The notes under the pieces: model-generated
Database searches by the model: none
What the model saw: only the letters and a program-made list of their open reading frames with translations
Told to the model about the DNA's origin: nothing
DNA from: Posidonia oceanica
Taxonomy: Eukaryota; Streptophyta; Magnoliopsida; Alismatales; Posidoniaceae
NCBI GenBank assembly: GCA_037176725.1
Contig: JAZBRS010000059.1
Span: 9,845,001 to 9,909,000 of the forward strand
Direction: 5' to 3'
Length of the DNA stretch: 64,000 nt
Part shown: positions 1 through 43,956 of the stretch, piece after piece
Position numbering within the stretch: position 1 is the first letter of the stretch
How the letters are laid out: the number at the start of each line of letters is the position of its first letter
Translations under genes and position numbers: made by a program

Positions 1-474
1 ACTCCGTACGCTGAGGGCGCTCAAGCATCCACCCGAGCATATCCATCCATTCAAGCATACTCATCCATCTAAGCATACTACTCATCTTCATAAGCATATC
101 ACCTGCATCATGCATACATGCATCTTCTTTCATTCCTTTCCTCTTCCATCAATCTCTCCCGCTCTGCAATGCGCTTTGGCCCTGAGACAGTACTCCTCCC
201 CAGCAGAGCGCATTGACGACACTCAAAGCTGCGCCGGTCCAGATCACCTGCCGGCCCTCGCCCCCGCATTCGCCGGACTGCTGCCAATCCCCTTTGTTTA
301 TTTGTGCTTAATTGCTATGTTCTGTTATCAACTGCTGAATGCATATGGAACTACATTTTCAGTCTCAGCTTCTGCTTGTTGTCAAAGATTATATGCCTGC
401 GAGATCTGACTGTTTATTGATAGCAGGTACCTCAAGCCTTGCAGTAATCAGCCTGTCTTCTGCAATCAAGTATA
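1..474 (+). other. Non-coding stretch upstream of the extra ORF (element A)
   Basis: Similar to 32495-32964 in element C, with small indels. An upstream reading frame (339-560) looks like an N-terminal extension of the extra ORF, but an indel just before the ATG at 475 puts the two copies in different frames there. The stretch is therefore read as untranslated. No other feature is seen. Confidence 0.6.
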
Positions 475-1677
475 ATGGATTTTCCTACTCTGCTGACTCC
501 CGCACATTGCTCGGAAACCCTGCGAGAATGGATCGGCAGGCTCACTCAAGTAGACTGTGAAAAGTTGCGCCTGTGGGGCATACCAACCAAGCTGCTAAAG
601 GCTGCTGATGTGGAGGTCAGCCGCCACCTTCTGTGTGCCGCCGCGAGATTCTGGAAGCCGGCGCATCATGTCTTCCGCTTCAACAAAACTGAGCTGACAC
701 CTACACTGGAAGAGGTGCGTCGGATTTGCGGCTTTTCAAAGATCTTGGGGCCGCCTATCTTTATGAGGTGCGACGGATATCTCCGGGTCCTGAGCCAACT
801 GACTGGGCTCTCCACTCAAGCCTGCCAACAGAAGCTAATCTGCACCAATGGACCAGAGCCTATGCTTCGCCTTGCACACTTTGATGATATCTTGAACAAG
901 CGTGCTGACCTCGGAGATGAGCTGTGGCTCCGAGGATTCGTCATCCGCTTCCTGGGCGAACTAATCTTTACTCATGGCCGACTGACAGTGGCCATCGAGG
1001 TCGCAGAAATTGCACTAGCTGTGGTGACCCAGCACATAGATCTGGCACCAGTTGTCTTGGCAGAGACATATCGCGGGCTGGACCGCATTTCTCATCGCTG
1101 CCGCCACTTCCATGGTTGCGGAGCACTTATACAAGTCTGGCTGACCGCGCACTTAGAGATGGACATCCTGCGCCCTCAAGTGCATGCTTTCGAAGCCTAC
1201 TGCAGCAGCGCCTGTACCAGAGCAGACAAGAGCGTCAAAGACGAGTACGAGAGGCTGTCAGCACTGACTGACGACACTGTGATCTGGCGCATCGTTCCCT
1301 CTGCAGCAGAGCCGTTCACAATCTTCTTCAGCGCGCGTGACACGCGGCTGATCATTCTTCCAGGCTTCACAGCAGGCGTAGAGTACCATCCAATCAGGGT
1401 CATGCGCCAGTTCGGCTTCCGGCAGGGCGCCTTCATTGACAGTACAGCGCCCGAGCTTCTACAGACTTATCCTCTCAGCACCACTGCCCCGACCAAGAAG
1501 CTTGCTAATCTGATGCAGCACGGGGTCCAATCTACAGACGTTGCAGCTGTGAGAGGTACTGGATGCACTCCTGATTATGAAGCCGAAGTCCGACAGCTCT
1601 GGCCAATCACTGAAGTTCCGCCAGGCGGCCCCTTATTCCCCGACTCCAGGCAGCCAAAGAAGGCCCGGGTTGACTAG
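475..1677 (+). CDS. Extra ORF, DUF7745-like (PMD-related) protein, element A copy
   Basis: A 400-residue protein. The N-terminal third has the pattern typical of plant DUF7745 proteins: a short helix-rich lead, then residues around 60-90 reading ARFWKPAHHVFRF and ELTPTLEEV. The C-terminus is basic (KKARVD) and could be a nuclear signal (inference). I see no catalytic motif, zinc finger or membrane segment. The ATG at 475 is chosen because homology with the copy at 32965 starts there and the upstream frames differ. It lies downstream of where pol ends in element C and upstream of the hairpin arrays, in the same orientation as pol. Tat-lineage elements are known to carry additional ORFs between pol and the 3' LTR; their role is not established. 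The frame is intact, unlike the element C copy, which stops 26 residues early. Confidence 0.8.
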   Translation: MDFPTLLTPAHCSETLREWIGRLTQVDCEKLRLWGIPTKLLKAADVEVSRHLLCAAARFWKPAHHVFRFNKTELTPTLEEVRRICGFSKILGPPIFMRCDGYLRVLSQLTGLSTQACQQKLICTNGPEPMLRLAHFDDILNKRADLGDELWLRGFVIRFLGELIFTHGRLTVAIEVAEIALAVVTQHIDLAPVVLAETYRGLDRISHRCRHFHGCGALIQVWLTAHLEMDILRPQVHAFEAYCSSACTRADKSVKDEYERLSALTDDTVIWRIVPSAAEPFTIFFSARDTRLIILPGFTAGVEYHPIRVMRQFGFRQGAFIDSTAPELLQTYPLSTTAPTKKLANLMQHGVQSTDVAAVRGTGCTPDYEAEVRQLWPITEVPPGGPLFPDSRQPKKARVD

Positions 1678-1929: not shown

Positions 1930-2650
1930 CACTCAGCTCCGCTGTCCGACGTCCCCAGCTGGTCATCCCCGGCTGGACCACTGTCCTCTGCGGGCTGGCA
2001 CCCCAAACTGCCCGGCGAAAGGTCCGTCAACCTGTCATCCTCCTCAGCTGTTCATCCTCAGCTGAGTCCCTTGCGGGCTGGCACCCCAAACTGCTCGGCG
2101 ATGGGTTCGTCAACCTATCATCCATCCACTCGATTATCTATCTTTGTACCCTGATGCCAGGGGCGCATCGGCCATGCCCTGGTATCATCCTGATACCAGG
2201 GGCATCTTTTGGCCGCCCTGTGGTATCATCCCCAGCTGATCATCCCCAGCTGAGTTCTCTGCGGGCTGGCACCCCGAACTGCCCGGCGAAAGGTCCGTCA
2301 ACCTGACACTCTTCTCGACTGGTCATCCCCAGTCGAGTCCCCAGTTGGTCGCCCCCAGCTGGATCATTATCTCTGCGGGCTGGCACCCCAAACTGCTCGG
2401 CGAAAGGTCCGTCAACCTGACACTCTTCTCGGCTGGTCATCCCCAGCTGAGTCCCCAGCTGATCGCCCTCAGCTGAGTCCCTTGCGGGCTGGTACCCCAA
2501 ACTACTCGTCTGACAAGCACGACACTCTTGTCATCACTCTCTGCTTTCGATGCCATGGACGCGCTGGCCAACCCCTGGTGTCATCCTGACACCAGGGGCA
2601 TCTTTTAATCGCCCCATGGTATCATTCTCTCCCCCTTTCCCCTATGACGT
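1930..2650 (+). repeat. Long-stem hairpin cluster (element A)
   Basis: Repeated units of 80-120 bp combine a GGGCTGGCACCCCAAACTG block, a GGTCCGTCAACCT block and CAGCTG-type inverted repeats such as CTCGACTGG/CCAGTCGAG near 2315-2340. Two strong hairpins flank a third segment: CCCTGGTATCA/TGATACCAGGG (2177-2187 with 2191-2201) and CCCCTGGTGTCA/TGACACCAGGGG (2572-2583 with 2587-2598). These two differ by a paired A-T to G-C change. A further hairpin, around TATGACG/CGTCAT, lies near 2642-2662. Confidence 0.8.
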
Positions 2651-2769: not shown

Positions 2770-3640
2770 TCCGATATCTTATCATTCTCATCATGATCTC
2801 ATCCCCCTCTTTAGCTTAACTTCTTATCATGATCTCATCCCCCTCTTTAGCTTAACTTCTTATCATGATCTCATCCCCCATTTAGCTTAACTTCTTATCA
2901 TGATCTCATCCCCCTCTTTAGCTTAACTTCTTATCATGATCTCATCCCCCTCTTTAGCTTAACTTCTTATCATGATCTCATCCCCCTCTTTAGCTTAATT
3001 TCTCATCACGATCTCATCCCCCATTTAGCTTAACTTCTTATCATGATCTCATCCCCCTCTTTAGCTTAACTTCTTATCATGATCTCATCCCCCTCTTTAG
3101 CTTAATTTCTCATCACGATCTCATCCCCCATTTAGCTTAACTTCTTATCATGATCTCATCCCCTTCTTTAGCTTAACTTCTTATCATGATCTCATCCCCC
3201 TCTTTAGCTTAATTTCTCATCATGATCTCATCCCCCTCTTTAGCTTAACTTCTTATCATGATCTCATCCCCCTCTTTAGCTTAATTTCTCATCATGATCT
3301 CATCCCCCTCTTTAGCTTAACTTCTCATCATGATCTCATCCCCCTATTTAGCTTAATTTCTCATCATGATCTCATCTCCCTCTTTAGATCAATTTCTCAT
3401 CATGATCTCATCTCCCTCTTTAGATTAATTTCTCATCATGATCTCATCCCCCTCTTTAGATTAATTTCTCATCATGATCTCATCCCCCTCTTTAGCTTAA
3501 CTTCTTATCATGATCTCATCCCCCTCTTTAGCTTAACTTCTTATCATGATCTCATCCCCCTCTTTAGTTTAATTTAATTTCTCATCATGATCTCATCCCC
3601 CTCTTTAGATCAACTTCTCATCATTACCTCATCCCCTCTT
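2770..3640 (+). repeat. 36-bp minisatellite (element A)
   Basis: About two dozen head-to-tail copies of a unit of roughly 36 bp built from TTCTTATCATGATCTCATCC and CCCTCTTTAGCTTAA, with small variants (CTCATCA for CTTATCA, ATTTAG for CTTTAG). Each unit holds the palindrome ATCATGAT. It is flanked on both sides by a GCCGGCCGATAAGTCCGATA hairpin segment (GATAAG with CTTATC). No coding potential. Confidence 0.9.
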
Positions 3641-3689
3641 TGCCGGCCGATAAGTCCGATATCTTATCATTCTCATCATGATCTTGCCC

Positions 3690-3889: not shown

Positions 3890-4800
3890 CGGCCTGCAGT
3901 TGTGTTATACGGCTGACATCCAGTAACTGTCCCTCGTAATTGCACTTTTCCAGTTGATAGGTCTGTAAACTATCCACCGGTTGACAGGACCGTAAACTGT
4001 CGCTCCAGTTGATAGGTCTGTAAACTATCGCGTGCAATTACGTTATACGGCTGACATCCAGTAACTGTCCCTTGCAATTGCGGTTTCCAGTTGATAGGTC
4101 TGTAAACTATCCTCCAGTTGATAGGTCTGTAAACTATCCACCGGTTGACAGGACCGTAAACTATCGTTAGGCTGATACTCCTAAACTATCACCAGTAATT
4201 GCATTATACGGCTGATATCCAGTAACTATCCCTCATCATTGCGCGTTTCCAGTTGATAGGTCTGTAAACTATCCGCCGGTTGACAGGACCGTAAACTGTC
4301 GCTCCAGTTGATAGGTCTGTAAACTATCCACCAGTTGGTAGGACTGTAAACTACCACGCGCAATCATGTTATACGGCTGACATCCAGTAACTGTCCCTCG
4401 CAATGCCGTTTCCAGTTGATAGGACTGTAAACTATCCTCCAGTTGATAGGTCTGTAAACTATCCGCCGGTTGACAGGACCGTAAACTGTCATTCCAGATG
4501 ATAGACTGTAAACTATCCGGCATTGCGTTATACGGTTGATATCCAGTAACTATCCCTCATGGTTTGTGGGTTCCAGTTGATAGGCCTGTAAACTATCCTC
4601 CAGTTGATAGGTCTGTAAACTATCCACCGGTTGACAGGACCGTAAACTGTCGTTAGGCTGATACTCCTAAACTATCACCCACAACCATGTTATACGGCTG
4701 ATATCCAGTAACTATCACTCACAACTGCTCCGGTTGACAGGACCGTAAACTGTCACTCCTGGTTGATAGGACCGTAAACTATCCGGACGATAAGCCCGTC
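3890..4800 (+). repeat. Array of short hairpins with covarying stems (element A)
   Basis: About 19 units of the form 5-bp arm, 9-nt loop ending GTAAA, 5-bp arm, mixed with units ending CCAGTAAC. Stems change on both sides together: GATAG/CTATC (3956-3960 with 3970-3974), GACAG/CTGTC (3983-3987 with 3997-4001) and GGTAG/CTACC (4337-4341 with 4351-4355). GACATCCAGTAACTGTC and GATATCCAGTAACTATC show the same in the second unit type. A few units have one broken pair, for example GACAG/CTATC near 4150. The last unit is GATAAG/CTTATC at the array's right edge. Confidence 0.9.
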
Positions 4801-5283
4801 ACCTTATCATTTTTTTCTCCTTTTCGGTGTGACCTTGTCCCAGGAAGACGAAGTCACGCACCCCCTTTCTGCGATAGGAGAGTTGGCCTCTCTCCCCTCG
4901 CACCCTTCTTTCCTGCTAGCTTGCTCCCCAGGCAGGGACCAGCTGCACCCTGTTTTCCTTCACTTTGTTGTGCAAGTCTGGCCTCCCTACCGGACATTCG
5001 CACCACATCGCACCTTTTTATCATTTTCTTTGCATCATCTCAGCACTTTCTTAGCTAGCACCGCATATCACTTTAGCATCATCAAGCATTACTTGCACAG
5101 CATCAGCATTTTCTTATAGCTGCACTAACTTTTATACTAACTCTTGCACTGCATTTAGCATATCACATACAGCACAGCATCCATCTGCACTGGCATCTTG
5201 CATTGCGGCAACGGGCTACGACCTTCGGTGCATCCGCCGAATAAGTAGCTCACGCCCATAGCAACCCGCTGCTCCCGCCGGTC
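4801..5283 (+). other. Spacer between hairpin array and PPT (element A)
   Basis: Matches 37371-37860 in element C. I see no conserved reading frame, repeat or RNA gene. Confidence 0.6.
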
Positions 5284-11137: not shown

Positions 11138-14046
11138 CTTACCTATTATGCATTGGAAATAAACGTGCTATCTAAGTGCTCAGCCACGCTGCTAGTGTTC
11201 CAAACTGGGCGGACCCTGGTTCGTGAGAACTCCTAAGCAGTAAGCATCATGGCCCTATATGCAGATGCAAGTGATAAAACAAAACGGCGGGAAAACCAAG
11301 CAATGCAGGCGACATGCGAGCGATAAAGCAAAGCAGCTGCGGAAAACGGTGCGGAAAATACGGAAAATACTGTAAAGCACGCAAAATGATGCAAAACACG
11401 GAAAGCAATGCAAAAGGGGTGCGGAAAACCGTGCAAAGGAGCGGGAAACAATGCAAAATACTGAAAACGGGACAAAGCACGGAAAACGAGGCAAGACGGG
11501 GTGCGAAATCAAAACAAAGGGGCAGACAACATGCATTAGGGTTACAGCAAGCCAAAGAAGCAATAAAATGCGAGAAACGGCGAGCAAAACAAAATCGACG
11601 CTTTAAAATGACTGTCAGCCATCTGCATGCATTGGACGCTGGCAACACCAGCGTCCAACGTTGGACACTAGGAGAGCCTGCGTCCAACACCCACTGCAGA
11701 CAGACAGCATGCATATTTTTTAAAAACAATGCAATCTCACTATATGAGTGCAGTACTGATGCAAATATGCAACTAAATGGGTACTAGACATGCAAATCTA
11801 ACCTAACAAAAGATTAAAGGAAGAATCGGAACAAGGAGCATGCCAAAATAAGGATCCAAACATGCAGGTTGTTGGACGCCTGTAGGTTGGGCGTCCAACG
11901 TTAGACGCCAGAATGGCTGGCGTCCAACACAGGACAGAAGGCAGAGGGGAGAAGGGAGCATACAAAAGCAAAATAAAAAATGGGTGCATGCATTTGGGGT
12001 TCTGGAGATGAACAAAGAGGCAGACAAGCAAGTATGGGTAGCATATAGGCAAAGTATCATAGAAATAAATCAAAGAGGCCTTACCTGTGCTGAGTGCCAG
12101 GCCAGAGGCACAACCAGGGCGTTGGACGCGAGCTAGGTTGGCGTCCAACGTTGGACGCCAACATCAGTAGCGTACAATGCTCTTGGAGGCACAACACACA
12201 AAAAGCATGCACAAAAACAAGCAAAATAATCTACAGAAATTAAAGGACAGTTGCTACTGATGCTAAACATGCATAAGAACGTAGGGAATAAGCAAACATG
12301 CAAGATCAGGAAGGCATGCAAGCATTAAACAAACGCATGAGAAGCCAGAACGTTGGACGCTAGAGCTAGCAGCGTCCAACATAGGACGCTGAAAGCTCTG
12401 GCGTCCAATGACCCAGGCCTGCAAACTCACCTGTTCTAAAAGGGGAGCTCAGCTCAGACCCCACCTACATGCATGCAGCTACTGTAACATGCCATAATAG
12501 AAAAGGAAGCATTGAAAGCAAGCATGGCAAGCATTTAAACCAAGAGAGAAAGATAAAGAGGAAGCATGCATGAAAGAATAGGCTTATGACTTGCAAAAAG
12601 AAATAAACAACTTAGTAAAATCCTAGCAAACCTAAGCGTGGTTGCCATAGGGGCCAGGCATCTCTAACTAGGCATGGATCACAAAATAATACTCAAAATA
12701 CGCATGGAGTAGGCATGGCAGCAAAGCAAAGCAAGCAGAGGCGTTGGACGCTAGGTGAACCAACGTCCAACGTTGGACGCGGCTCACTCTAGCATCCAAC
12801 ACAGGCAGGAGACAAACTGATCATTAAGCATGCAAAAAGCAATCAAACATGCATGGAACAAGTTAAAAACATGGTATAGCATCAGAGAGAATTAAAAGGA
12901 GGCAAATAGCATATGTTTGCAAACAAGCATGCAAGGAAGAGGCATGGAAAGCAACTGAACAAGAGCAAAGCAGAGTAGAGCAAGAGGGGCCGTTGGATGC
13001 TGGCCTATGCCGCGTCCAACGTTGGACGCACCAGGTGGTGCGTCCAACACACTGAACTCCATTCCGGCCTTGAATCATGGCCAAAAGGATTCAGAAAAAA
13101 GCAAGGTTGCATGGGGACGTACACACTAGCATGCATGACCTAAAGGGATAGGGTGCTTACCTCGTCGCGGCCTGGAATGGCATGTCGGCCTCCTTCACCG
13201 GCGCTGCGGAAGTGGACGACCAGCTGACTCCGGCGAGCTCGTGCAGACTGCTGGAGGCACGGGAGAGGTTGGCAAAGGGTCTGGGATGTAGGTGGATACT
13301 TGGTTTCTCTCTAGAGTGGAGAATTGCAGTGGAAACGGGTTGTGCTGCTCTGTGTGTCTTGAGGAAGATGGGTGGTTGGTGCTGGTTTTGACCAAACGGT
13401 GCATGGGTTCTACTGCGAATTGCAACGGCTTGGGCGGGAATTGCAGGCGAATGGCAGATGCTCTGGGTGTGGGAAGGCCACAAGGAATGGCAGGAGTGGT
13501 GTGGGCATGTCAGTCGGCGGCGAGGAGGCCAATGGTGGCTGACAGAGGTGGCAGGGGTCGGTGAGGGCAAGGAGAGCTGGATTTCGGCTGAAATAGAAGA
13601 GAGATAGGTAGTAACTCAAGCTTGGAAGGTAGTGGATGGCGTGGAGTGGAGGAAGGGACGGGTAGTATGTGAGGGGAGGCGGTGGATTGGACGGGAGGTG
13701 AGCGGAAGGGGGCGGAGCAGCCGCTGCTGCAACCGAGCCGTTGGACGCCGGACCAGAGGGCGTCCAACGTTGGACGCTGGAACAGGGTGCATCCAACATT
13801 GGACACTGCCTATTCCAGCGTTCAACGAGCTCAGTTGGCAAAAGGCTGCAACAAGGCTTGGGCTTGGGCCAAAGAGGTGGAAAAAAGGTGTAAAAAGGCT
13901 TGAGGTTTTGGCTTGGGATTTAGGTGAGGTTTTGAGCTAGGTTTTGGGTTAAAAAAAGGTAGAAAAAAGGAGTGCCAATCTAGAGTCCACACAAGCTTGC
14001 ATGAGAAAACAACCAACTTCCGGGCTGTCAGAATGGGGTGTCTACA
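11138..14046 (-). mobile_element. 3' LTR of element B, truncated by element A
   Basis: Aligns with 50972-53838 of B's 5' LTR. The piece matching 50507-50976 is missing here because element A is inserted at CTTAC. It contains seven double-hairpin modules. It differs from the other LTR by scattered substitutions and by an extra segment around 12123-12160, so B is clearly older than C. No conserved ORF. Confidence 0.9.
11632..13829. repeat. Seven double-hairpin modules in the B 3' LTR
   Basis: Modules of about 60 bp at roughly 11632-11694, 11871-11931, 12120-12180, 12350-12411, 12741-12803, 12991-13048 and 13738-13829. Each is two adjacent inverted repeats with outer arms GTTGGACGC and GCGTCCAAC. 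The best is 13021-13048: arms GTTGGACGCACC and GGTGCGTCCAAC around AGGT. The inner arm bases differ from module to module but often still pair, e.g. GCTGG/CCAGC at 11632-11658. Confidence 0.9.
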
Positions 14047-14110
14047 GATGCCCCTCCCTGAGTGAGGTCAAGCGTAGCGAGACCGCTGCTCAGGGTAGAC
14101 AAGACACCCT
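14039..14110 (-). promoter_or_regulatory. PPT and folded U3 junction of element B
   Basis: On the - strand the tract AGGGAGGGGCATC directly precedes TGTAGACACC. GTCTAC (+ 14095-14100) can pair with GTAGAC (+ 14040-14045), and CCCTGAG (+ 14089-14095) with CTCAGGG (+ 14056-14062). In A and C the first pair is GTCAAC/GTTGAC, a two-sided change that keeps the pairing. Confidence 0.85.
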
Positions 14111-15302: not shown

Positions 15303-15307
15303 GTTAC
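15303..15307. repeat. Left target-site duplication of element C (GTTAC)
   Basis: GTTAC abuts the LTR start at 15308 and is repeated at 43952-43956. Five-base duplications are typical of gypsy-type integration. Confidence 0.97.
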
Positions 15308-17026
15308 TGTTGACACCCCATCTTGGCAGGCTTGGACCCTTGGAGCCCTCTGGTTGATTGCTGGATCAAACCCCAACCAAACCCTAACCCTAACCCTCCT
15401 CTCAACCCTTCAAAATCAGCCCGTTTTGGCCTAAACCTTTACCCCCCTTCCCAACCTCAAAACCTAACCAAAATTCATAGGAAAACCCACCACTATCCAC
15501 TCAACAAACCTACCCAAAAACCCAGGATTTTCCAAGCCTGACCCATTCCCAAAAACCCTAGAAAACTTAGGTGAAACTACCCTTTTTCTACACCTTGAAA
15601 CCCCTCCAAAACCTCTTTAGAATCAAACCAAAATTTCAGACCCAAGACTTCAAAACCTAGACTACCCACCCACCAATTTTCACCCCATTCCAAGACCTTT
15701 GAGACCCTCTTTCACTCAAATTATCCTTTTCTCTCTCCAGGATTATCATTTTCTCTCTCCTCTCTCTCTCCTGATTATCATCTCTCTTTTCATCCCTTTC
15801 TGATCCTTTTTCTGGTCTGGCTGTGGGCCCCCTCTGTGCTTCTATCCTTCCTCTATCTTATCCCTATTTTTACTTTATTTTTAACACTTTTTCTGAATTT
15901 TTAAAAATCGTTTTCCTCCAACCTATCTTTTTCCCTTTTATCTCCCTCTTTTTTCCATTTCTTTCCTCCATCTCTTTTCCTTTTCTCCCTTTTGCAAAAA
16001 TCCACAAAAACCCATAAAAATCTGTAAAATCTCAAAACATAAAACAAACAAATCAGTACCCTAAGAAAAACAATTAAAAAATGTTAAACAAGCAATTAAC
16101 AACTTAAACTTAACTTAAGCAAGCTAAAAAGAAAACTAAACATGCAAACTAAAAAATGCAAAACAAATCAAAAGAAAACACTGAAAAATCAAGGAAAAAA
16201 ACTAAAATGAGATCTAAATCTAGCAAAAGTAAAAAACCCACTAAAAGAATTAAAAAACAAACCCTAAAAAGGAGAATTAAAAATCAAACATTAAAACAAA
16301 TAATTAAAGAAGGCAAAGGACTTAACCTAGTAAACATAAGAAAAACAAGTTAAAAGCTTAATTAAAAAAAGAAAAGAAAAACACATCTGAAAAGCTTAAA
16401 AACACCCTATCAAACCAGAAAAATCCAACTAAAAACTTCAAGAAAAATCCTTAAATAAAAATCAAGACATAACTTAAAAGACTTAAGAAAGAAAAACCCT
16501 AAGAAGACTACAACTTTAAAATCTAAAACCAACCCTAAAATAATACAAAATAAATCCTGAAAAATCCTAATCAATACCCTAAGTGTCCAACAAAAGAAAT
16601 AAAATTTTTAAAATAATTTAAAAAGGGATTAACAAACATTTAAACAAGTGAAAACCAATTAAAAACAAAACCAAAACCCTAAAACCCTAATCAAGCCCAA
16701 AACACATTAATCAACTCAAAATAACCATTAAAAATCTTAATTAAAATCCTAACCTACAGCAAAACTCTTCTAATATTTTTACTTATTTTTAGTTTATTTT
16801 TACCTATTTTGTTTCCCCATTCTACCCTCTCTTTCTTTCCTCCTTCTTTCTTTCTTTCTTTCTTTCTTTCTTTCCTTACTGGGCTCAATCCGGCCCATTT
16901 CTTCTTTTCTTTCTTTTTCATTCCTTTTCTCAGCCCGCAGCAGTCCGGCCCACGCTTCGTCTCCTCCTTCTTCTTCCCCGCGCTTCCACTGGTTTCCTTC
17001 TTCCCGCGAGCTGCTGCCAACAGTCC

Positions 17027-17222
17027 TCCCTCTCCTTTTTAAATTTCAAGCTCCCTCTCCATCAGATCATGCAACAGCAGCCCGCCGCTCTCTCATCTCT
17101 CAGCGCCTTTTCCGGAGGCTTTGAATGCCGGTCGGCTCGTCGACATCCATCGCGTCTGCTGCAGTGCCGCCGATGAGTTTGAATTCAGCAGCGCGCCAGC
17201 AGCAGCTCCTCCTGATATAAGC
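17027..17222 (+). promoter_or_regulatory. Candidate LTR core promoter (element C)
   Basis: Nearly identical to 7067-7262 of the more diverged A LTR and ends at TGATATAAG. Element C transcription would start a little downstream if this is the TATA box (inference). Confidence 0.4.
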
Positions 17223-20200
17223 TTCCCGTCCTTCCTTCAGTGGAGAGAGAGACCTCCAATTGGCAGTGAGAGCGAGCAAGAGAGAGCAACGAGAGACCAC
17301 CAGCAAACCAGAGACCAAAATCCAAATTTTCCTTCCTTTCTGTGCGACCTTCCTCCTCCCCTGATCCTCTTCCAATTCCGGAGTGAAAAGAGAGAGGAGA
17401 AGAGAGTGTTTGTGAGTTCTGGGCATCCCGGAGAGAAGCCCTCATCAGAGCCCGATCCCTCCATCCAGTCTTCTTCTTTTCTTCTCTGAAAATATCAGCA
17501 GAGCATCCTTCTTTCTTTTCCAATCCCCCAACACCACTCCAAGCCTCCACACTTCTCCCCTTTGCTCCCCCAAGATCACCCAAAACCCAGCCATTTCCCA
17601 GCTTCATTCTCCGGCCATTCCACCCACTGAACCCACCTAAAACCACCCGGAAACACCCCGATCACCAGACCTGCAACCCAGCTCCTTTCTCTCACAATTC
17701 CCTCCACTCCAACTCACCACCCTCTCCCAAACTTTGTCCAGAGACTCACTGGACCTCCACCTCCTCAAAACACCAACCATCAAACCCAGCCACCCATCGT
17801 AGACCTTAAGCTCCACTACAAACACCTAGACCATCTTCAGCCCAGAAAACCGACTTAGCTCCAAGACCACTCCACAGCCTCCCAAAAAGCATTTCAACCA
17901 CCCAGAACCACTCCCCGCACCTCCAGCAATCTCCCAGAGCGCTCCATCCAAGCCGACGAGCAGCAACACCCCTCCCCGACCTCCGGCAGCAACCTGTGAA
18001 CCCAAATCAGTCGAACCACCACCCGTGCTGCGAAGCTTCCGTCTGACTATCTGGGAAGCACCGGAGGAACATTCGGAAGCCGCTCCAACCTTCGCGAGCG
18101 ACGGACGACGCCCGCTGTGACCGAACGACCTCCGCCGACCGGCTCTGGAACCACTGACGTCGGGGGAACAACTCAGACGCGGGAAGAGGTAAATTTTGCT
18201 TCCATTAGCTTCCTTTTCTTTTCCTCTCACTTCCCCGCCCTTTAGACTAGCTTTTCCGGCCCTCCTGCTCCGCTTCCGCTCGCCGGTCCGGTCATCTTCT
18301 CCGGCAACGTCCTCCGGTCTTCACAGCACTCCAGCCAGCGGAACGCCATCCCGGTGATCCCCGAAGCTCCGCACGGACGTCAGGAGTCTCCTCCGGTCTT
18401 CAGAGCGCAGCTTCGCTGCGTCGAACGACCGGACCGAGCTTCAGACCTTCTGTAGAGCTCCGGCGAACGCTCCGGCACGTTCCAGACAGCGTCGTCCTCC
18501 ACCGATTGCCGCCCTGTCTCCGCCAACTCCGAGAGCACCTCCTCCGTTCGACTGCGCATCCTCAGCCTCCCCCTGTCGACGGCATGAGCGCTGGAAGTTT
18601 CGTGCTACAGTGCTCGTCGCCGTCGACGATCGGCACTGTGTCTTTATTTTTCAGTTTATATAGTTTTAGGGTGAATATTGCATATCTGTCTTAAGTTTTT
18701 TTATTTTTGCAATCCGGTCCTTATTTCGTTTATTCTGCTTAGTTCTTAATTAAATACTTTGCTAAATTGCGCGATCTGTTTATGTTTTTCAATATTTGCA
18801 AGTAGATCCTTTTACTGTGCTGTGCTGCTTTAATATTTTGTAGTTTAGTCCTCCTGTTCTCAGTTTTTGCACTTAGGTCCTGCATTTAATCAGTTCATTT
18901 ATTTACTCATATTTACCATACTGCATTGCATCCTGGCCCCCTGCATTTTTCTATTTTTGCATTTAAGTCCATGCACTGTAGAAAACTTAGGTTCTGATTT
19001 TTATTTTTGGTTGATGCATTGCATTTTAGCCCCTCTGCTTTATCATATTTGCAGTTAGGTCCATTTTAAATGGACAGTAACTGTGCTGCATGCATTTTAA
19101 CTTACTGCATTGCATTTTTAACCCCATGTTTTCCAGAAATTGCACTGTGGTCCTGTCATTTAAATTCCAGAGCATATTTTCCATACTAAATTGCATTTTC
19201 AGCCCCTGCATGATTTGAAAATCACACCTAGGTCCCTGCATGTTTTAAAAAATCGTGTGAAAAGACCATTTTGCCCCTAGGTTGCATTTTAGCTCCTATG
19301 CCTACCAAATTTCGTACAGACCTTCCACTAGTACCCCCAGACTCCCCAGGACCTTGTTTTCTGGAAAATTTGCATTTTAGACCCTAGATTTTTTTCAAAA
19401 TTGCACTCTGACCCCTTTTGGTTTCAAAATCTCTTCCAAAACATACCTTCTTTTCAAAACACCTTTCTGAGCCTAGTTTTTTGCCAAATAGACCCTTGGC
19501 TTCCCCTGTTTTCAAAGTCTTCTCCTGTGGAACCCTGTTTTCTGGAAAATTTGCACTTTTAGCCCCTCTTCTTTTTCAAAATGCTTTCTGAACTCCTGGT
19601 TTTTCTCAAATTACTTCTCTTTACTTTTCTTGCTTTTGCATACCATCCTGCACTCATTTAGTCTTGCATTTTAGCATCTTCTTGCACACACTTAGCATTT
19701 CTAGCTCCCTTTCACTTGGGAGGCCCCTTTTACACATCCCTAGGACCTCCTGAACACCTAGACCTGTTCTTCTCCCCTGATCTGGCCCTTCTGCCTTGGA
19801 GCTGCAATATCTTCCAATCCGGCCGTTGGATCTTCTCAAATGAGCTGCCCAGGCGACCGCAGCGAAGCGCTCTTCAGCATAGACCAGACAGATTTCAGAT
19901 CAGGCTCCCGGATTTCCAGGTATGTCCTCCTGAACCCCTGCATTGCATTCATTTGCATGGCATTTGCACAGTTTTCCTTGTTTTCGCTTTCTGTCTCTTC
20001 GAGCATGTAGAATAGGACTTCCCCTTTCTGCTTATCTATTCAAATCCTCGTTTCGCGTTTCTCTGTGTGTTTCGTGTTGCGTTCTCCCTGGATTTGCCAC
20101 TTTATGTGACTTTCTTCCCCTTTTTCCACGATCCGATCGCATCGCGAGCTTTGGGCAGCATGCGAGACACATCGTGGAATGGTCTAGTGGGAAACAGCCG

Positions 20201-20379
20201 CAAAAAAGGTGGTAATCCCTCCATTTGCCCCTTCTCCCCTCAGAAGGTCTTCACACCTACTCTGAGTGGTCTTAAACAGCGTTTGTTCTCATACACACGT
20301 TGTCTTGCCTCCCCTTCGCCCCCTTTTAATCTCTCTCTGCATCCTCGCATTTGCATGGCTTTTTCGAGGTTTTTGCTTC

Positions 20380-20690
20380 GCTGTTTTGGCACCGTTTCGC
20401 GTGCCCGCCCTCGTTTTCGCTCCGTTTTGCGTACCCATCTGTTTTCTTGTCTCGTTTTGCGCACTGTCTTGCCGTCTCGTTCGTTTCATGTGCCGGTTTC
20501 TTTCTCTCGCTCCGTTTTGCGTACCTTTCTGTTTTCTCGTCTCGTTTTGAGTAGTTTCCTGTTTTCTTGTCTCGTTTTGCGTGTTGTCTCGCTTTTTTCG
20601 CTTGTTTTGCGCACCGGTTTCGCTCTTTCGCACTGTTTTGCGTGCGTTGTTCGCTTCCCGCCTCGTTTTGCGTGTTTCGCGCCGTTTTCC
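20380..20690 (+). repeat. GTTTTGCGTGCC-type minisatellite in the C 5' LTR
   Basis: Degenerate units around CGTTTTGCGTACC and GTTTTCTCGTCTCGTTTTG, equivalent to the A array but with a different arrangement. The long + and - strand reading frames across it are by-products of low stop-codon frequency. Confidence 0.8.
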
Positions 20691-21333
20691 ATTGCATGTC
20701 GATCGCATTGCATGGTTTTCACGCTGTTTCGTTTTCTCGCTTGCATTTGCATATAGGGCTATGATGCTTACTGCCTGGAGTTCTCACGAGCTAGGTTACG
20801 CCTGGTTCGGAACACAGACAGCGCAGCTGAGCACTTAGAGAGCACGTTTACTTCCCTGCCTTGCATTTTCCCACTTAGAGCACTCCTCGAGCATTCATTT
20901 AGGCATTCATAGGCACATAGGCATTCAATCCTGCATCTTTCTGCGTATGCGAGCGTAAGCCTAGAAAGACCGATTCTCGGGCGTGTCGGGGGTGCCTAAC
21001 ACCTTCCCCGCGCGTAACAGGAGTCCTTGCCCTGTCTTCTGGCCCGCAATGACCATATTGCCCCTATCCTAGGCTAGAGTCATCATATTTGCATCCATTT
21101 GCATTTGTTTTCCTTTGCATTGCTTTGCTTTGCATTTCTTTCTTGGTTTTGCGTGTTAATTCATGCATTTCCCCCGGTTTTCCTTGTCTCCCGTTAATAG
21201 ACATGGTGGCGACTCTGATTTGTCTTATCTTTTCCTTTTCTCCTCGATTTTAAGTGTTTTTCGAGTTGAGCCTCTTCCTCGGATCTCAATCGCCGCTAAA
21301 TAGCGAGCCTGGTTCCGATCGGGATCGCTACAG

Positions 21334-21351
21334 TGGCGACTCCGCTGGGGA
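21334..21351 (+). promoter_or_regulatory. Primer binding site for tRNA-Arg (element C)
   Basis: TGGCGACTCCGCTGGGGA lies one base after the LTR end. Its complement ends GGAGTCGCCA, as expected for a plant tRNA-Arg with a GACTCCG acceptor arm. Ogre-type elements are known to use tRNA-Arg. Confidence 0.9.
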
Positions 21352-22660
21352 TGCTAGACTCCGGCTTTCGCTTTTGGCTTTTTCGCTCGCTTGTTTTGCA
21401 GCTTTGTCTGCCTTGTGTGCCTTCTTTGCCTGTTTTGCTCGCTTTTCTGTGCAAACCCCTAGCAAGTCGCTTCGTGGCTACTTTGCTTGGGTTTTGCGCC
21501 TCTTTCGCCTCGGTTTGCGCTTCCTCTTGCTTGGCTTCGCTTATTTGCTTGTTTATTTACTTATTGCCTTGCTTATGCTGATATTTCTTTTACAGTCCGC
21601 TTACCTTTACCTTACTTAATTTTACTTGCTTATTACTGCTCTAATTCTTGCACATTGCGTGTCTACATACTTTGTTTGGCTAAAATACATGCTTTTTGGA
21701 TGTTGAATGCTTCTTTTACACTCTTGCTATGTCACTACACACGCACATACTATGCCTACGTGCCTTTTGACTTGATGAATGCTTCTTTTTCACCATCATG
21801 TTCACAAACACTCGCACATGCCATGAACGTGCCTTTTGTTGTGTTGTATGATGGTTGCTTGCCATTTTGACTGATTTTCTTCCCTTTCGCACATGCCATG
21901 CTTAGGATAGTAGAGACCTGTCTGCTTCCCCCATGGTTAACTAAAAAATGCAAGTAAAAAGAACTTCTAGGGGCAACTAGAGACTACAAACAATCCTTCA
22001 CTCCCTTTGGTTAATAAAATGTGCAAGATAAAAAACTCTAATCATTTGCATAAGCATCATATAGGGCATGCATTCTTCTCCTCTGAGTCCACCTACTAGT
22101 CTGCGAAGGACGATTCCGGCCTCTTGTTCCACTGCTTTGGGCGTGGCATAAGTTGGTCGGTCCGTCCCCTCCTTGTCCGGGGGTCGTGTCGGTGTTAGTA
22201 GAGGGTACCACCCACGCTTTGGCGGGGTAGAGGCCACCAACGCACCACCCTGTCATTACCTGAGCTTTGAGCCAGGAGTTAGGCAGGGGACCTACTTTTT
22301 CTGACCTGAGTCGGTGACCCGTACATCCAGGGATACCCGGAGTAGACAACCTTACTAGGACGCACTAGTTAGGTGAGGGGGGCATACTAGAAAGCATGCA
22401 TATCATTCACGCCACTTAACTAACTCATTTGCATTCATCCTCTAGTTTCTAACCCCAATTTCCTTCTGTTGTGTCAGCGTGATCGGTAAGCGAGTTCCCT
22501 TTGCCAGAGCTTGAGTACCGACCCTCGTTGACCCCCTTTTTGCGACTTAGTTCGCGACCATTCCCCTTCCGAGCTATCCGCACTTGCGACGATAGCTCCT
22601 CTTAGGAAGCACCGCTTGAATACCCATCGCAGCCCAGTTCTCACACGCTCTAGGTCAGCA
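21352..22660 (+). other. 5' leader of element C
   Basis: Non-coding. About 22060-22400 is clearly related to the leader of element B (about 49480-49770, other strand): both share phrases such as GGTACCACCCA and GACCTGAGT/GTGAC. Around 21700-21880 there are two imperfect repeats of a phrase containing TGCCTACGTGCCTTTTG. Ogre-type leaders are long, but I do not recognise this block. Confidence 0.7.
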
Positions 22661-25600
22661 ATGGCCCAGTACGTTAGTGAGCCTTCTTTTACTCCTGTCA
22701 CGGAGGGTGTTTTCGTTCTGGCCCCCCCGGTTGCTCTTTCTGTCCCACTTGTTCCCCCTCCGACGCCAGGGTTTCCTCCTCTGACGTCTCTAGGTTCTCA
22801 GTACACCCCGGGACAGTGGCAAGCCTCCCTTCCTCCGGATCCGGTCGCCGAATCTATCTTGACGGCCGTTACTCGCGCTCCGGAGACGCCACTGCCCCCT
22901 CCGTCCCAGGGATACGTCGCTTTCGACATCCCTTCCACCGCTGCTGCGACCTTCTCTGTAGAATCCTCCCCTCCCGGACAGTCTGTGTCCGTGCCACTTG
23001 TTTCTCAGCCTCCGCCGGCACTGCACTTCAGCGTCCCCACTGGCGAGACGCCCGAGGCGCAGTACCAGCATCTGATGGAGCTCGCCCAGAGACTGCAGGG
23101 CATGGCTCTATCAGTTCGTCCTCCTTCTGTCCCTGTCGTTCCTGAGGTTCCTCCGAGGCCAGTTCCTGCATTCCTTGCATCAACCTCTACACCTCCGCCT
23201 CGACCATCGTCGCAACTGCTCACGGTTCCGACGATGGGGGCTCGTTTACCGCCTCCTCCTGCACAACACTTGGCACAGCATGCTCCACTTTCTTCTGGTG
23301 GTCAACCCTTTGGATCGGCTGGAGCCCAGTACCTCACTGGCTCGCTGTCTGGCACCCCGCCTGCACAGCAACTGGTGCCCCGCCATCCTACCCCTGTCCC
23401 AGCACAGCATGGCATTTATTCTTCTCCTCTCCCTCAAGTCCAGCATCCTGCATACACTCCTGCATACACTATCCCCCAGCACGGATACGTCGGCCATCCC
23501 GTTGCTCCACCAGGCGACGCTATGGTAGATCCGGAGGAGCACTTAGGTGCGACCCATTCGGCGTATGTGCTCGCTACCCCTGCTGATCCCTCTCCTCCAG
23601 CAGCAATCCCAGACCCCATCAATAACCGGATGGACGTCTTGGAAAAAGCACTACGACTAGTGCAGGGTACTGAGCACCAGACCTACCAGTTCCGGGACCT
23701 CTGTTGCTTTCCAGAGGCGGTACTCCCTCCGAAGTTCAAAATCCCGGACTTCGAGAAGTATAATGGTAGGGGCTGCCCTGTAGCACACCTGAAGGCGTAT
23801 TGCGGTGATCTCGCTCAGCTTCAGGCTGACGAGAGGTTGCTGATCCGCTTGTTCCAGAAGAGTTTGACCGGGCCGGCGCTCAAGTGGTTCACGTCACTCG
23901 ATATGTCAGCCATCAAGACTTGGAACGACCTCAGTCAGGCGTTCCTGGAACAGTACTCCTTCAACCTCGATCTTGTCCCCAAAAGGGCGGACTTGATCGC
24001 CATCAAGCAGAACTCTGGTGAGCCGTTCGGGGAGTACGTCGGCCGCTGGCGCGCCCTTGCCTCTCAAGTCCGGGATAGACCCTCTGACGAGGAGTCTATC
24101 GAGATCGTTATCAAAGGGGCGCAGCCGTCTCTCGGAGCTCTGCTTAGCATCCAACCAGTCACTACTTTCGCGGCACTCATCAGAGCTGGAGCGCGCGTGG
24201 AGAGTTCTTTGCGGAGTGGCAACTTCCCAGCTCTCTCTGCGTTCGCTAAGCAGGCAGTGATAAGCAGCAACAATGCCAACAGCAGCACCTCCAACAACAA
24301 CAACAGCGGCAGCAACAACAACCGCCCGAAGAGGAAGGATTCGCCGAAACCCGCTGTTGCATTCGTCGATTCTCCTGCTGTGCCTGTTCGCTTGCCGTCG
24401 CGGCCTGCCCCAGCTCAGGTGGTGTACGCTCCTGCACCTAGGAATCCACACACACCGCACATCACAACCACCGCTAGACCGGTCTATCCTGCCGCACCGG
24501 TTCAGCAAGGCCCGTACCCAAGGCAAAGAAGACCACCCGCTGAGAGGAGGAATTTCACCCCACTGGTGGAACCGCTCACGGATATCTTGCCGAAGGTGGC
24601 ATCGCTCCTGAAGTTCCCGGAGGTTCGTCCGCCACCAAGCCCTCTGCCGCATTGGTTTAGGCCGGACCTCTTCTGCAATTTCCATCGAAGCGTCGGGCAT
24701 TCGACGGATAATTGCTTCTCCCTGCGGAACGCAATTCAGGACCTGATCGAATCGGGAACGATTGTGATCGACACGCACGAGGCTTCCACTCAAGCACGCA
24801 CCCATGCATCTGCATCTCCAGCTGTTCCCCCGCATTCTGGCATCGTCCGCCAACCTTTACCGGAGCACTCTCATCCGGGAAGGGCGGGAACCTCAGGCGT
24901 CCACTCTGTTTTTCCTTCTGGGCCCGCTACCTCTGTATTGGACCCTTCTGATCTTATCTCTGACCTCTCTGAGCCTTTCCCAGTCAGTCTCTATTTGGCG
25001 GCAGTTGCCGGCTCCGAGTCGGGAATCCATTTGATCCGACCGCGTGCCAGGCCGGAGCGCCCTCGCGCGACTCCCACCGTGCTCCCTCGGGCTCAATCTC
25101 CCATACACCTTTTAGCCAGAGCCCAGCCTAGTTCTCTCATTCACCTTCTAGGGCGACCTCAACCACACCTTCTAGGCAGACCTCAACCTGCCCCAACTTT
25201 CCCACCCCAACAACCATATCCCTTAGACAGACCTCAGTATCCTGTAGGTCCCCCTGTAACCCCTCCTGTGCTCGCAGCACATGCTCCAGTCGTCATTAAC
25301 TTGACCATGGACACCCATCGCGTCCCTTACAGCTACGCCACAGAAATGTGCGCGGAAGTAACGCGATCGGGGAGGATTTACAGGCCCCCAGCACCAGCAA
25401 CTAGGCCAACTCATCCTAGACCTGTTATACCCCCACCCTCAGGCCAGCCCTTAGCAAATCCAGCCCCAGATCAGCCTGTAGTTAGCCAAGCCCCTAGCCG
25501 GCCTGTAGTAACTCAGCTTCCTGCCACTACCCCTGTAGAACCTGCTAGAATCACCCCTCCAGCTGCTAGGAGAGACCAACCTAGAGCAGACCTAACCTCC

Positions 25601-28390: not shown

Positions 28391-28408
28391 CGACCGCAGT
28401 GGCTGCTC

Positions 28409-31400
28409 ATGATCAAAGAAGAGATAATGAAGCAGTTTGGAGTCAACTTTCTGAAGGTCGTTCTTTATCCTGAATGGCTGGCAAACATTGTACCTGTGCC
28501 CAAGAAAGATGGCCGAATCCGGATCTGTATCGACTACAGGGACCTGAACAAGGCGAGTCCCAAGGACGACTTTCCATTGCCTCACATCGACGTCCTAGTC
28601 GACAATACAGCAGGCCACAAGATGCTCTCCTTCATGGACGGCTTTTCTGGATACAATCAGATCAAAATGGCAGAAGAGGACATGGAAAAGACTTCATTCA
28701 TCACCCCTTGGGGAGTCTTCTGCTACCAAGTCATGCCGTTCGGCCTGAAGAATGCTGGTGCAACCTATCAAAGGGCCATGACTGCACTATTCCACGACCT
28801 CATGCACCAAGAAGTGGAGGTCTATGTAGACGATATGATCGCCAAAACCAAAGAGCCCGAGGATCATCTTGCCTGTCTCAGAAAGCTCTTTGACCGTCTA
28901 CGGAAGTACAAGCTGCGCCTGAATCCCAAGAAGTGCGTATTCGGGGTATCTTCTGGCAAATTGCTCGGCTACATTGTTAGCCAAAGGGGGATTGAGGTGG
29001 ACCCGTTGAAAGCACAAGCCATCGTGGACATGCCACCCCCTAGAACTGAAAAGGAAGTCAGAAGTCTGCTTGGGCGTTTACAATATATCAGTCGCTTCAT
29101 TGCACAGCTTACGCCCATCTGCGAACCCATATTCAAACTCCTGAAGAAGAATGCGCAGATTCACTGGAACGAGGAGTGTCAGGCTGCATTTGCCAAGATC
29201 AAGCAGCTATTGATCAAGCCTCCTGTCCTGGTCCCGCCTACGCCGGGGAGACCTTTGCTTCTCTACCTTTCTACCACGCAGCATTCCATGGGCGCCGTCT
29301 TGGGCCAACATGACGAATCTGGTAGGAAGGAGCGCGCCATCTACTACCTGAGCAAGAAATTTAATGAATGCGAAGCCAGGTATACAACACTAGAGAAGAC
29401 TTGCTTGTCCCTTGTCTGGGCTGCACAGAAGCTGAGACACTACATGATGGCATACCCAGTACAGCTCTTATGCCGGCACGATCCCATCAAATTCCTCTTC
29501 CAGAAGCCGGCCATGGTGGGCAGATGTGCTAAGTGGCAGGTGTTATTGTCTCAGTACGACATCACCTTCGTCACACAGAAATCCATGAAGGGTCAAGCAA
29601 TGGCCGACCATCTTGCTGACCTCCCTCTGCCTGAATACCAACCCCTCCAGACGCAGTTCCCTGATGAAGACATTCTCTTTGCAATGGAGGACTCTGAGCA
29701 GAAAGATCCTGAAGAAGCAGAGGAATGGCAGCTCTACTTTGATGGTGCAGTCAACAAGAAGGGTCGAGGCGTAGGCGTAGTGCTGACCACGCCCCAAGGA
29801 CAGATGACTCCTTTCGCGAGGAAGCTGACTTTCACCTGCACAAACAACGAAGCAGAGTACGAAGCATGCATCCTGGGGTTGAAAGTCGCCCTCGAGCATG
29901 AGGCGCAGAAGCTGCATGTGCACGGCGATGCCATGCTGGTGATTTCTCAAGTGAACGGCGAATGGAAGACAAAAGATCCCAAGCTTGTGCCGTATCACGA
30001 ACACCTGCTGAGGCTGATGAAAGAATTCAAGAGCATCCGCTTCACATACCTGAACAGAGCGAAGAACGCGTATGCAGACGCACTAGCAACTCTGGCATCC
30101 TGGCTCACTGTATCGGAAGACAGCACTGTGGATGTATCAGTCACTCGCATCGAGCAGCCTGCATACTGCATGAGCATAGAAGAAGCGGATCCCGCAGAGG
30201 GGCAGCCCTGGTATCAAGACATAAAATCTTTCCTGGAGTCTGGTAACTTTCCTCCTGATACCACGGCAGCAGACAAGAGAACTTTGGCACGTCTGGCGTC
30301 AAAGTATGTGTTAGGGGCCGGGCAGCTGTACAGAAGGTCATACAATCAGATGCTACTGCGCTGCCTGAACAAGTCGGAGGCTGACACGCTGATGCTTCAA
30401 GTGCATGCGGGAACCTGTGGCCCGCACATGAACGGCGTCCTCCTGGCCAAGAAGATCATGCTTCAAGGATATTTCTGGCAGACCATGGAAGCCGACTGCT
30501 GCCGGTTCGTGCGTAGATGCCACAACTGTCAGGTCCATGGTAACTTCATCAAGGCCCCTCCACATCAGCTGCATAATATGTCTTCGCCATGGCCTTTCTC
30601 CACCTGGGGGATCGATGTCATCGGCGCCATCCACCCCGCTGCTTCAAATGGTCATCGTTACATTCTCGTAGCGATCGATTACTTTACCAAGTGGGTGGAA
30701 GCGGCCTCTTACAGGACAGTCACCGCTGCGGCAACAGAAAAATTTATCAGAAACAATATTGTTGCCCGATATGGGGTCCCGTACTCTGTCATCTCTGATA
30801 ACGGCTCAAACTTTATTGCCAAAAGGATCGAAGAATACCTGCAAAGTCTCAAGATCAAGCACCATCGATCCTCGCCTTATCGGCCTCAGATGAACGGAGC
30901 AGTGGAATCTGCAAACAAGAATATTGTCAAGATCCTGAAGAAAATGGCAGAAATCCACAAGGATTGGCATGACAAGCTCCCGTACGCACTCTGGGCGTAC
31001 AGGACATCAATACGGACCTCTACAGGAGCCACCCCGTACTCTCTGGTGTACGGCATGGAAGCGGTGTTACCTGTTGAAGTGGAGATCCCCTCTCTACGGA
31101 TCCTGCGGGAAGCTGAGTTGGAAGAAGCAGAATGGGTCGAAGACCGCTGCATCCAACTGAACTTGATTGATGAGCGCAGATTGCAAGCCATACATAACGC
31201 TCACTGCTATCAGAAGCGGATGGCCAAAGCATTCTTGAAGAAGGTCCAGCCCAGAAGCTTTCAGCCAGGGGACCTTGTCTTGCGCGCCATTCACTTACCG
31301 GACGGTCGAGGGAAATTCCGGCCCAATTGGCGCGGCCCCTTTATGGTCAAACAGATCTTCTCCGGAGGCGCTGTGACTCTTGAGGATATGGACCAGATTG

Positions 31401-37370: not shown

Positions 37371-37860
37371 ACCTTATCGTTTTTTTTTTTTCCTTTTCGG
37401 CGTGACCTTGTCCCAGGAAGACGAGATCACGCACCCCCTTTCTGCGATGGGAGAGTTGGCCTCTCTCCCCTCGCGCCCTTCTTTCCTGCTAGCTTGCTCC
37501 CCAGGCGGGGACCAGCTGCACCCTGTTTTCCTTCGCTTTGTCGCGCAAGCCTGCCCTCCCTGCCAGGCATTTGCACCACATCGCGCCTTTTTACCATTTT
37601 CTTGCATCATCTCTGCATTTTCTTAGCTAGCACTGCACGCCATTTTAGCATCATCAGTATCACTTGCACAGCATTAACATTTTCTTCTAGCTGCACTAAC
37701 TTTTATACTAACTCTTGCATTGCACTCGCATCAGCATACATACACACAGCACAGCATCCATCTGCACTGGCATTTTGCACTGCGGCAATGGGCTACGATC
37801 TTCGGTGCATCTGCCGAATAAGTAGCTCACGCCCATAGCAACCCGCTGCTCCCGCCGGTC
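37371..37860 (+). other. Spacer between hairpin array and PPT (element C)
   Basis: Matches 4801-5283. No gene, repeat array or RNA gene recognised. Confidence 0.6.
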
Positions 37861-43951: not shown

Positions 43952-43956
43952 GTTAC
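43952..43956. repeat. Right target-site duplication of element C (GTTAC)
   Basis: Identical to 15303-15307; element B sequence resumes here. Confidence 0.97.

Follow-up and report, generated by a model that had tools for sequence, protein, structure and literature searches.

What maintains a tandem array of small stem-loops near the 3′ end of a plant retrotransposon, and is it the base pairing of its units that selection acts upon? The question is raised by a 64,000-nt stretch of the Posidonia oceanica genome (assembly GCA_037176725.1, 2.96 Gb in 80 contigs; contig JAZBRS010000059.1, positions 9,845,001 to 9,909,000), hereafter the window, which holds three long terminal repeat (LTR) retrotransposon elements, here called A, C, and D. 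A preliminary description had noted in A about 19 hairpins with a 5-bp stem and a 9-nt loop whose stem arms change together, the same array in C, and a second type of unit, and had proposed selection on base pairing. We find that the units of A and C fit H-type pseudoknots seated on five arms, which near-identical linkers join into a closed six-way junction in the 3′ untranslated region (UTR). The matched sequence changes suggest that the folded RNA matters to the element.

Units of the Array

The array is real: element A holds the 19 units claimed (18 of 24 nt and one of 23 nt) and element C the same array with 18 units of 24 nt and two of 23 nt. A sequence-only scan of the window thus lists 36 of these 24-nt units, here termed beta, three 23-nt variants, and 12 linker units (six in A and six in C), and none of the three kinds on the minus strand. 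All three reported stem variants, GATAG/CTATC, GACAG/CTGTC, and GGTAG/CTACC, were found. The second unit type, with its GATA/TATC and GACA/TGTC variants, is likewise present, but its role has to be corrected: it is the linker, a spacer between larger stems. Nor is the 9-nt loop free, as its C[T/C]G can pair with a C[A/G]G ahead of the stem. In beta units, stem 1 is CAG...CTG or CGG...CCG, with the 3′ partner lying inside the hairpin loop; in two further classes, alpha and gamma, it is GGG...CCC or AGG...CCT and CGG...CCG or CGT...ACG, respectively. Stem 1 has 3–4 bp, a loop of 1–2 nt crosses a stem 2 of 4–7 bp, and the last loop has 3–6 nt and is often A-rich, so that the units, judged by their sequence, fit H-type pseudoknots. 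We rejected a structure of simple hairpins only, because the loop holds the stem-1 partner and this pair covaries, in alpha units and between classes.

A scan with a pseudoknot grammar, compared with 30 shuffles, gave 22 and 21 sites in the beta regions of A and C versus 1.3 and 1.4 (maximum 3). It gave 7 versus 1.8 ± 1.3 (maximum 5) in the alpha/gamma region of A (1940–2670), 5 versus 2.5 ± 1.1 (maximum 4) in that of C (34430–35470), and 10 versus 3.2 ± 1.8 (maximum 8) in element D; control stretches in gag and pol gave 3 versus 6.0 and 4 versus 5.1. Antisense counts are also raised, with 8 sites in each beta region (vs. 1.7 in A and 1.5 in C), 7 in D (vs. 3.7), 6 in the alpha/gamma region of C (vs. 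2.9), and 11 in gag (vs. 7.5). Because tandem duplication makes such counts non-independent, we put the weight on covariation.

The alpha and gamma units form pairs, which the scans place upstream in A (1992–2533, plus strand; GGGctGGCAcCCCaaacTGCC, then directly CGG...CCG units, the series being closed by the variant unit TCGTcTGACAAGcACGAcactCTTGTCA at 2506–2533), in C (34475–35327, plus strand), and in D (44295–46634, minus strand), where gag is present. Three more predicted pseudoknot units follow each ring on the plus strand, at 4731–4754, 4760–4783, and 4784–4808 after ring A and at 37301–37324, 37330–37353, and 37354–37378 after ring C. Within 1940–2670 and 34430–35470, the alpha-gamma units alternate with short hairpins whose arms are based on CAGCTG/CCAGCTGG or resemble CCCCTGGTATCA; the fold probabilities listed for these hairpins are 0.73–1.00, most above 0.9.

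Architecture of the Ring

A further level of structure lies above the units, in the form of six long junction stems. The beta units of A and C sit in five arms, each closed by its own stem of 7–13 bp. Linkers of 30 nt connect these arms, and an outer stem of 9 bp closes the resulting six-way junction. On the plus strand, ring A spans 3896–4728, its outer stem pairing 3896–3904 with 4720–4728 (GCAGTTGTG/CACAACTGC; RNAfold mean pair probability 0.994). Linker 1 (TTATACGGCTGAYATCCAGTAACTRTC plus 3 nt) lies at 3905–3934 and linkers 2–6 at 4043–4072, 4204–4233, 4369–4398, 4528–4557, and 4690–4719. Arm 1 (3935–4042) is closed by CGTAATTGCAC/GTGCAATTACG and carries three units, starting at 3951, 3978, and 4006, and each of the others carries four: arm 2 (4073–4203; TGCAATTGC/GTAATTGCA, with one G-U pair; units at 4088, 4115, 4142, and 4169), arm 3 (4234–4368; CATCATTGCGCGT/ACGCGCAATCATG, with one mismatch; 4250, 4277, 4305, and 4332), arm 4 (4399–4527; CGCAATGCCG/CGGCATTGCG; 4413, 4440, 4467, and 4495), and arm 5 (4558–4689; CATGGTT(T)GTGGGT/ACCCACAACCATG, with a one-base bulge; 4574, 4601, 4628, and 4655). 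Ring C, also on the plus strand (36465–37298), has its outer stem at 36465–36473/37290–37298 (RNAfold), linkers at 36474–36503, 36612–36641, 36773–36802, 36938–36967, 37097–37126, and 37260–37289, and five arms between 36504 and 37259 (36504–36611, 36642–36772, 36803–36937, 36968–37096, and 37127–37259).

The flank after each linker pairs, ungapped and in register, with the flank preceding the next linker, and the last with the first; this cognate pairing is the best of the 720 permutations in A and likewise in C. Unconstrained RNAfold recovers all six junction stems, with mean probabilities of 0.834–0.999 in A and 0.848–0.997 in C, and leaves a clean six-way junction when the units are masked; the fold of ring C is better than that of every one of 20 shuffles (z −2.8). 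The linkers of A and C share 94% identity, whereas the junction-stem strands of different arms are only 47–58% identical and yet pair, with partners 87–110 nt or 816–817 nt apart in the stems listed. Among the nine distinct junction stems of A and C, 95.1% of cells are paired versus 74.0% after shuffling (a level reached in none of 20,000 shuffles), and eight of the nine columns carry double changes; the number of further pair types showed no excess over shuffles.

Rings in the Genome

Genome-wide, a gamma pattern allowing up to two mismatches gave at least 163,112 matches and a linker pattern allowing up to three gave at least 172,370, and neither reversed pattern gave any. Taken at six linkers per ring, the latter figure corresponds to roughly 29,000 rings. 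We fetched two sets of loci: 20 segments, each of 10 kb, surrounding gamma hits (gamma-chosen loci) and 20 of the 34 clusters made from 100 listed exact linkers, each chosen for at least one exact linker (ring loci). All 100 of these listed linkers keep the variable pair of their stem, although the pattern permits C.A and T.G; with the other 25 bases fixed, exact linkers with C-G at this pair number 45,303 in the genome, those with C.A 920, and those with T.G 227.

Exactly six linkers were found in 16 of the 20 ring loci, and 3, 4, 7, and 8 in the others. Six remains the rule even though the units detected per arm range from 1 to 6 (by patterns for the known unit types only), and one locus with a different arm set (L042) has six linkers all the same. 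In the 19 loci with at least four linkers, cognate pairing ranked first in nine and second in six, the remaining four giving ranks 4 and 13 of 720, 12 of 5040, and 20 of 40320, in an ungapped scoring that penalizes the bulged fifth stem. Three loci (L036, L039, and L048) have rings with 4, 8, and 7 linkers, as if whole arms had been lost or gained in register, and the four stems of the first are still cognate (rank 1 of 24). The CAG/CTG type of beta stem 1 also occurs outside A and C (in L033 and L042), and no beta unit was found in the 20 gamma-chosen stretches.

Covariation of Stems and Units

We compared pairing with that of shuffles or with the value expected under independence; all these tests ignore descent and none is tree-based, and their numbers are therefore not probabilities. 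In 18 six-linker rings, A and C included (4 of the 22 rings lacked exactly six linkers and were left out), the first seven pairs of 108 junction stems, 40 of them distinct, are formed in 92.9% of cells versus 75.3% in shuffles, and double-change cells number 62 versus 19.6, neither being equaled in 5000 shuffles.

In the window, the 18 distinct 21-nt alpha rows of A, C, and D (22-nt hits left out) are paired in 96.0% of cells versus 88.9% in shuffles and have 16 double-change cells versus 6.8 (0/500 shuffles); the number of pairs carrying a double change, 4 versus 2.5, was reached in 56 of 500. The 11 distinct 24-nt beta rows (the three 23-nt hits left out) behave similarly, with 93.9% versus 88.5% of cells paired and 9 versus 2.6 double-change cells (both 0/500), 3 pairs with a double change versus 1.4 (57/500), and pairing that falls to 23–53% when the partner is slid by 1–3 columns; exceptions are the units at 4142–4165 (GACAG/CTATC), 36520–36543 (CTG/CTG), and 36846–36869 (last pair lost). 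The signal is weaker in the 12 distinct gamma rows (a 25-nt subtype, 7 of the 26 hits, was excluded), with 92.5% versus 90.4% of cells paired and 4 versus 1.5 double-change cells (9/500 each) and a covariation score reached in 32 of 500 shuffles. For stem 1, 48 distinct units from the window, spanning several classes but no linkers, are 95.8% paired versus 75.3% in shuffles, and still 87.2% versus 69.7% (3/5000) when collapsed to 13 distinct arm types.

Outside the window, the tested positions of the gamma-chosen loci were left free in the pattern, for stem 1 and stem 2 in turn. Stem 2 covaries at two gamma pairs (.931 vs..751 expected and.893 vs..716) and two alpha pairs (.855 vs..626 and.834 vs..671), the excess at the other four pairs tested being at most.04, and G.U outnumbers A.C by 151 to 52. 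In a set of 168 alpha-gamma pairs (158 distinct) from 20 loci, 4 of 11 stem-2 pairs lie above independence (.899/.706,.873/.690,.994/.839, and.949/.802). In 163 of 197 gamma sites the unit begins directly where alpha ends; a hairpin across this joint and a pairing of the alpha 5′ with the gamma 3′ strand were considered and dropped, their excess being at most.02, and an extension of alpha stem 1 by pair 4–10 found no support. Across the loci L010–L029, GATGAGT/ACTCCTC is a frequent form of gamma in which a T.C mismatch persists within stem 2, and other unit types also follow alpha.

The alpha units are most telling at the first stem-1 pair, which was left free in the ring loci together with A and C (n = 146). 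It is A-T in 64 units, T-A in 39, C-G in 9, and G-C in 8, the other 26 being A.G (10), G.A (8), T.G (4), A.A (3), and C.A (1); among distinct units, 31 of 43 are Watson–Crick at this pair versus 26% expected. The presence of all four Watson–Crick types is the best evidence for the pseudoknot. Each pairing of the H-type fold, taken singly, has support, that of stem 2 and that of stem 1, the latter in the alpha units of the ring loci and in the 48 window units. The variable stem-2 pair of the linker is kept in 130 of 130 linkers (118 fetched and 12 from the window), as T-A in 96 and C-G in 34.

Beta units tell another story. Stem 1 of 368 units is CGG/CCG in 214 and CAG/CTG in 69, with one-sided CAG/CCG in 12 and CGG/CTG in 7, the remainder consisting largely of units with one change at one of the other two pairs; stem 2 of 376 units is GATAG/CTATC in 287, GACAG/CTGTC in 30, GGTAG/CTACC in 8, and GACAG/CTATC in 2, the remainder being mostly single changes or shifted hits. 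Over distinct rows the excess is small (.872 vs..807 at stem-1 pair 2 and.924 vs..887 at stem-2 pair 8–22), as the copying of a small number of founder changes would lead one to expect. Because the beta types are few and copied whole, independent compensated changes in beta are few. The proposal of selection on base pairing thus gains support from outside the window, and loses most of the beta units as separate witnesses, and the alternative raised against it, spread of whole units from a few founders, is partly true.

Weight of the Evidence

Covariation supports the junction stems, stem 2 of the pseudoknots, and the first pair of alpha stem 1. Most of the evidence for pairing selection comes from the junction stems, with their diversity, and from the alpha units; for stem 1 of beta and gamma units, the support is a single variable pair or else conservation. 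Several observations weigh against so structured a reading. In gamma-chosen loci, alpha and gamma stem 1 pairs in 74–89% of cases, near expectation (the largest excess being.842 vs..791), with 79 G.U versus 95 A.C. Seven of the 11 stem-2 pairs of the alpha-gamma set have no clear excess (at most.01), one of them being below expectation (.886 vs..922), and the junction stems contain 6 G.U versus 9 A.C. The linker's own stem 1 does not covary (.872 vs..888), so that we do not count the linker as an established pseudoknot; among exact linkers, moreover, C.A exceeds T.G at its variable pair, which does not agree with G-U tolerance. Pseudoknot energies are marginal in the model used: at a penalty of 9.6 kcal/mol, four of eight units favor the pseudoknot over their best nested hairpin, and at 7 kcal/mol all eight do. 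Finally, unit variants seem to have spread also as whole copies, and cells therefore overcount events.

Elements of the Window

Element C is delimited by LTRs at 15307–21334 and 37928–43953, 99.77% identical by BLAST; its ends, TGTTGACA...CTACA, are flanked by GTTAC on either side and give a span of about 15308–43951. Pfam searches of its open reading frames (ORFs) place gag and protease at 22532–28390 and reverse transcriptase (RT), RNase H, a second RNase H, and integrase at 28391–31450, all on the plus strand. The Tat/Ogre group has the order gag, protease, RT, RNase H, second (RVT_3-type) RNase H, and integrase, and element C shows Retrotrans_gag, Asp_protease_2 (21 bits, under its cut-off of 24.3), RVT_1, RT_RNaseH, RVT_3, and rve in this order, along with the 3′ UTR tandem repeats of the group. 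A plant mobile domain ORF (PF10536 and DUF7745) lies between pol and the 3′ UTR in both A (448–1677, plus strand) and C (32830–34092, plus strand), and the array stands between this ORF and the 3′ LTR, with some 0.55 kb separating the array's end from the LTR, which in A starts at about 5351. Upstream of the pseudoknot array, a 36-nt pyrimidine-rich tandem repeat occupies 2785–3641 in A (about 24 copies) and 35524–36260 in C (about 21 copies).

Element D lies on the minus strand, where gag matches (49319–47167) are followed by its array; a pol match was looked for between the two and none was found. Two segments, 11138–14047 and 50972–53839, are 94.9% identical and look like its LTRs, and a separate minus-strand pol match lies at about 60.2–57.0 kb. 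The arrays of A, C, and D are all on the coding strand of their own element. Among the 120 pol relatives listed, most are 60–67% identical and those named are mainly from plants; one protein, 65% identical, is filed under Salmonella enterica (P0008) and is probably plant DNA contamination. No relative was found among viral contigs, by pattern or by pol profile, and a search of genome contigs gave one locus (L001), 32% identical, which was not used.

Possible Roles of the Ring

What would such a structure do? We propose that the array, once transcribed into the 3′ UTR of the genomic RNA of a Tat/Ogre-type LTR retrotransposon, forms a closed six-way junction whose arms bear tandem H-type pseudoknots. 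It would act in cis on the element's own RNA, as its geometry fits the sense strand only and its position and retention resemble those of a cis element. At the 3′ end it could serve as a platform bound by many copies of a protein, which would protect a very long transcript or aid its export and in this way raise the amount of genomic RNA that arrives in the particle. A structured 3′ UTR RNA with this stability or export role is the best explanation that we can offer, and we put its chances at about even. That the six-fold assembly of pseudoknot arms, kept at six through arm turnover, builds one defined ribonucleoprotein per genomic RNA is a more tentative proposal, to which we give slightly less than an even chance.

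The same structure might instead serve packaging, the pseudoknots being binding sites for Gag and the ring gathering Gag on one genomic RNA. The many near-identical small modules per RNA would suit this role, as would element D, which keeps gag and the alpha-gamma array without a pol match; this array, however, is equally explained by stability or export, and known retroviral packaging signals are mostly 5′. We prefer stability or export with modest confidence, because D keeps its array without pol and because the RNA structures of other LTR elements act there, and consider packaging unlikely, if still the main rival; the results presented here fit the two roles alike and do not separate them, which also counts against the role that we favor.

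Escape from silencing or decay, for instance through a structure that stops an exonuclease or the RNA-dependent RNA polymerase behind the amplification of small RNAs, appears improbable. It has a precedent in compact viral RNA structures, some of them pseudoknotted, that are reported to stall the exonuclease Xrn1 (PMC10520033), and unit matches are very numerous in the genome. The 20-nt coremin motif given there was, however, not found in the window, its best match having 6 of 20 mismatches and lying at 7816, outside the array.

The absence of any RNA function is a still more doubtful possibility. Tat 3′ UTRs often contain tandem repeats, for which an origin in replication has been hypothesized (PMC7004042), and template switching at quasi-palindromes could match stem arms without selection; the few founder variants behind many beta units are in keeping with such an origin. 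It accounts poorly for junction partners that lie 87 nt or more apart, up to 817 nt, for two interleaved stems that both vary within a unit, for junction strands that diverge between arms and remain paired next to nearly uniform linkers, and for the recurrence of six linkers despite differing arm sequences and unit numbers. Finally, a role of the repeats as DNA (cruciforms, chromatin, or replication elements), which the antisense excess in A, C, and D and the lack of G.U preference in junction stems would suit, is very improbable, since the short first and longer last loop that pseudoknot geometry demands fit sense RNA only, sense sites in the beta regions outnumber antisense ones by 22 and 21 to 8, and the arrays of all three elements follow the coding strand.

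Comparison with Known Systems

The closest known counterparts by position are the hypervariable tandem repeats of Tat/Ogre 3′ UTRs (Macas et al. 2009, via PMC7004042), which share with the present arrays the element group, the place, and the tandem monomers; the latter article treats them as DNA repeats and a source of satellites, and the term secondary structure is absent from its text. Consecutive pseudoknots in a plant RNA 3′ UTR are known from the tobamovirus TMV, whose upstream pseudoknot domain comprises three of them, with reported roles in replication and translation (PMC4683447). They precede a tRNA-like structure, whereas element A has 22 units, arms and tail together, in a closed ring within an LTR retrotransposon. 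ARAGORN found no tRNA or tmRNA in the window, bearing in mind that tRNA-like structures may escape it; tmRNA itself is tRNA-like and does not belong to a transposon.

In function, the ring would resemble the ENE of the Arabidopsis LTR element Evade, a cis-acting 3′ UTR structure that raises RNA stability (PMC12501189); the ENE forms a triple helix with the poly(A) tail, unlike the ring. The musD MTE and IAP RTE of mouse are RNA structures acting in stability or export, according to a review whose passages on them do not mention a six-way ring, and they are likened here by description only. Rfam gave no ENE-type and no GOLLD, ROOL, or OLE match in the window; its four matches there (E 0.42–2.9) are all far under the gathering scores, and none lies in the rings. 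GOLLD, ROOL, and OLE share with the ring a large ornate form and support from covariation, but are bacterial RNAs that assemble as homo-oligomers (PMC12286853).

Such an architecture is not described in the titles and abstract openings of the searchable literature on Ogre/Tat and plant LTR RNA structure and on tandem pseudoknots, a body of text from which subscription literature is mostly absent. Should the 3′ UTR repeats of Tat/Ogre elements be under selection as RNA structure, then much of the DNA of some plant genomes encodes a complex RNA, and what this RNA does in the life cycle of these very large plant retrotransposons can be tested directly. At some 29,000 copies, the ring would rank with the most abundant of the large structured RNAs that a genome encodes. 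Its arms, which differ in sequence while remaining correctly paired, would provide a natural example of RNA architecture for which the literature searched offers no parallel. The ingredients, namely H-type pseudoknots, 3′ UTR cis elements, and Tat 3′ UTR repeats, are already known; it is their combination in a six-way pseudoknot ring that we rate as categorically new.
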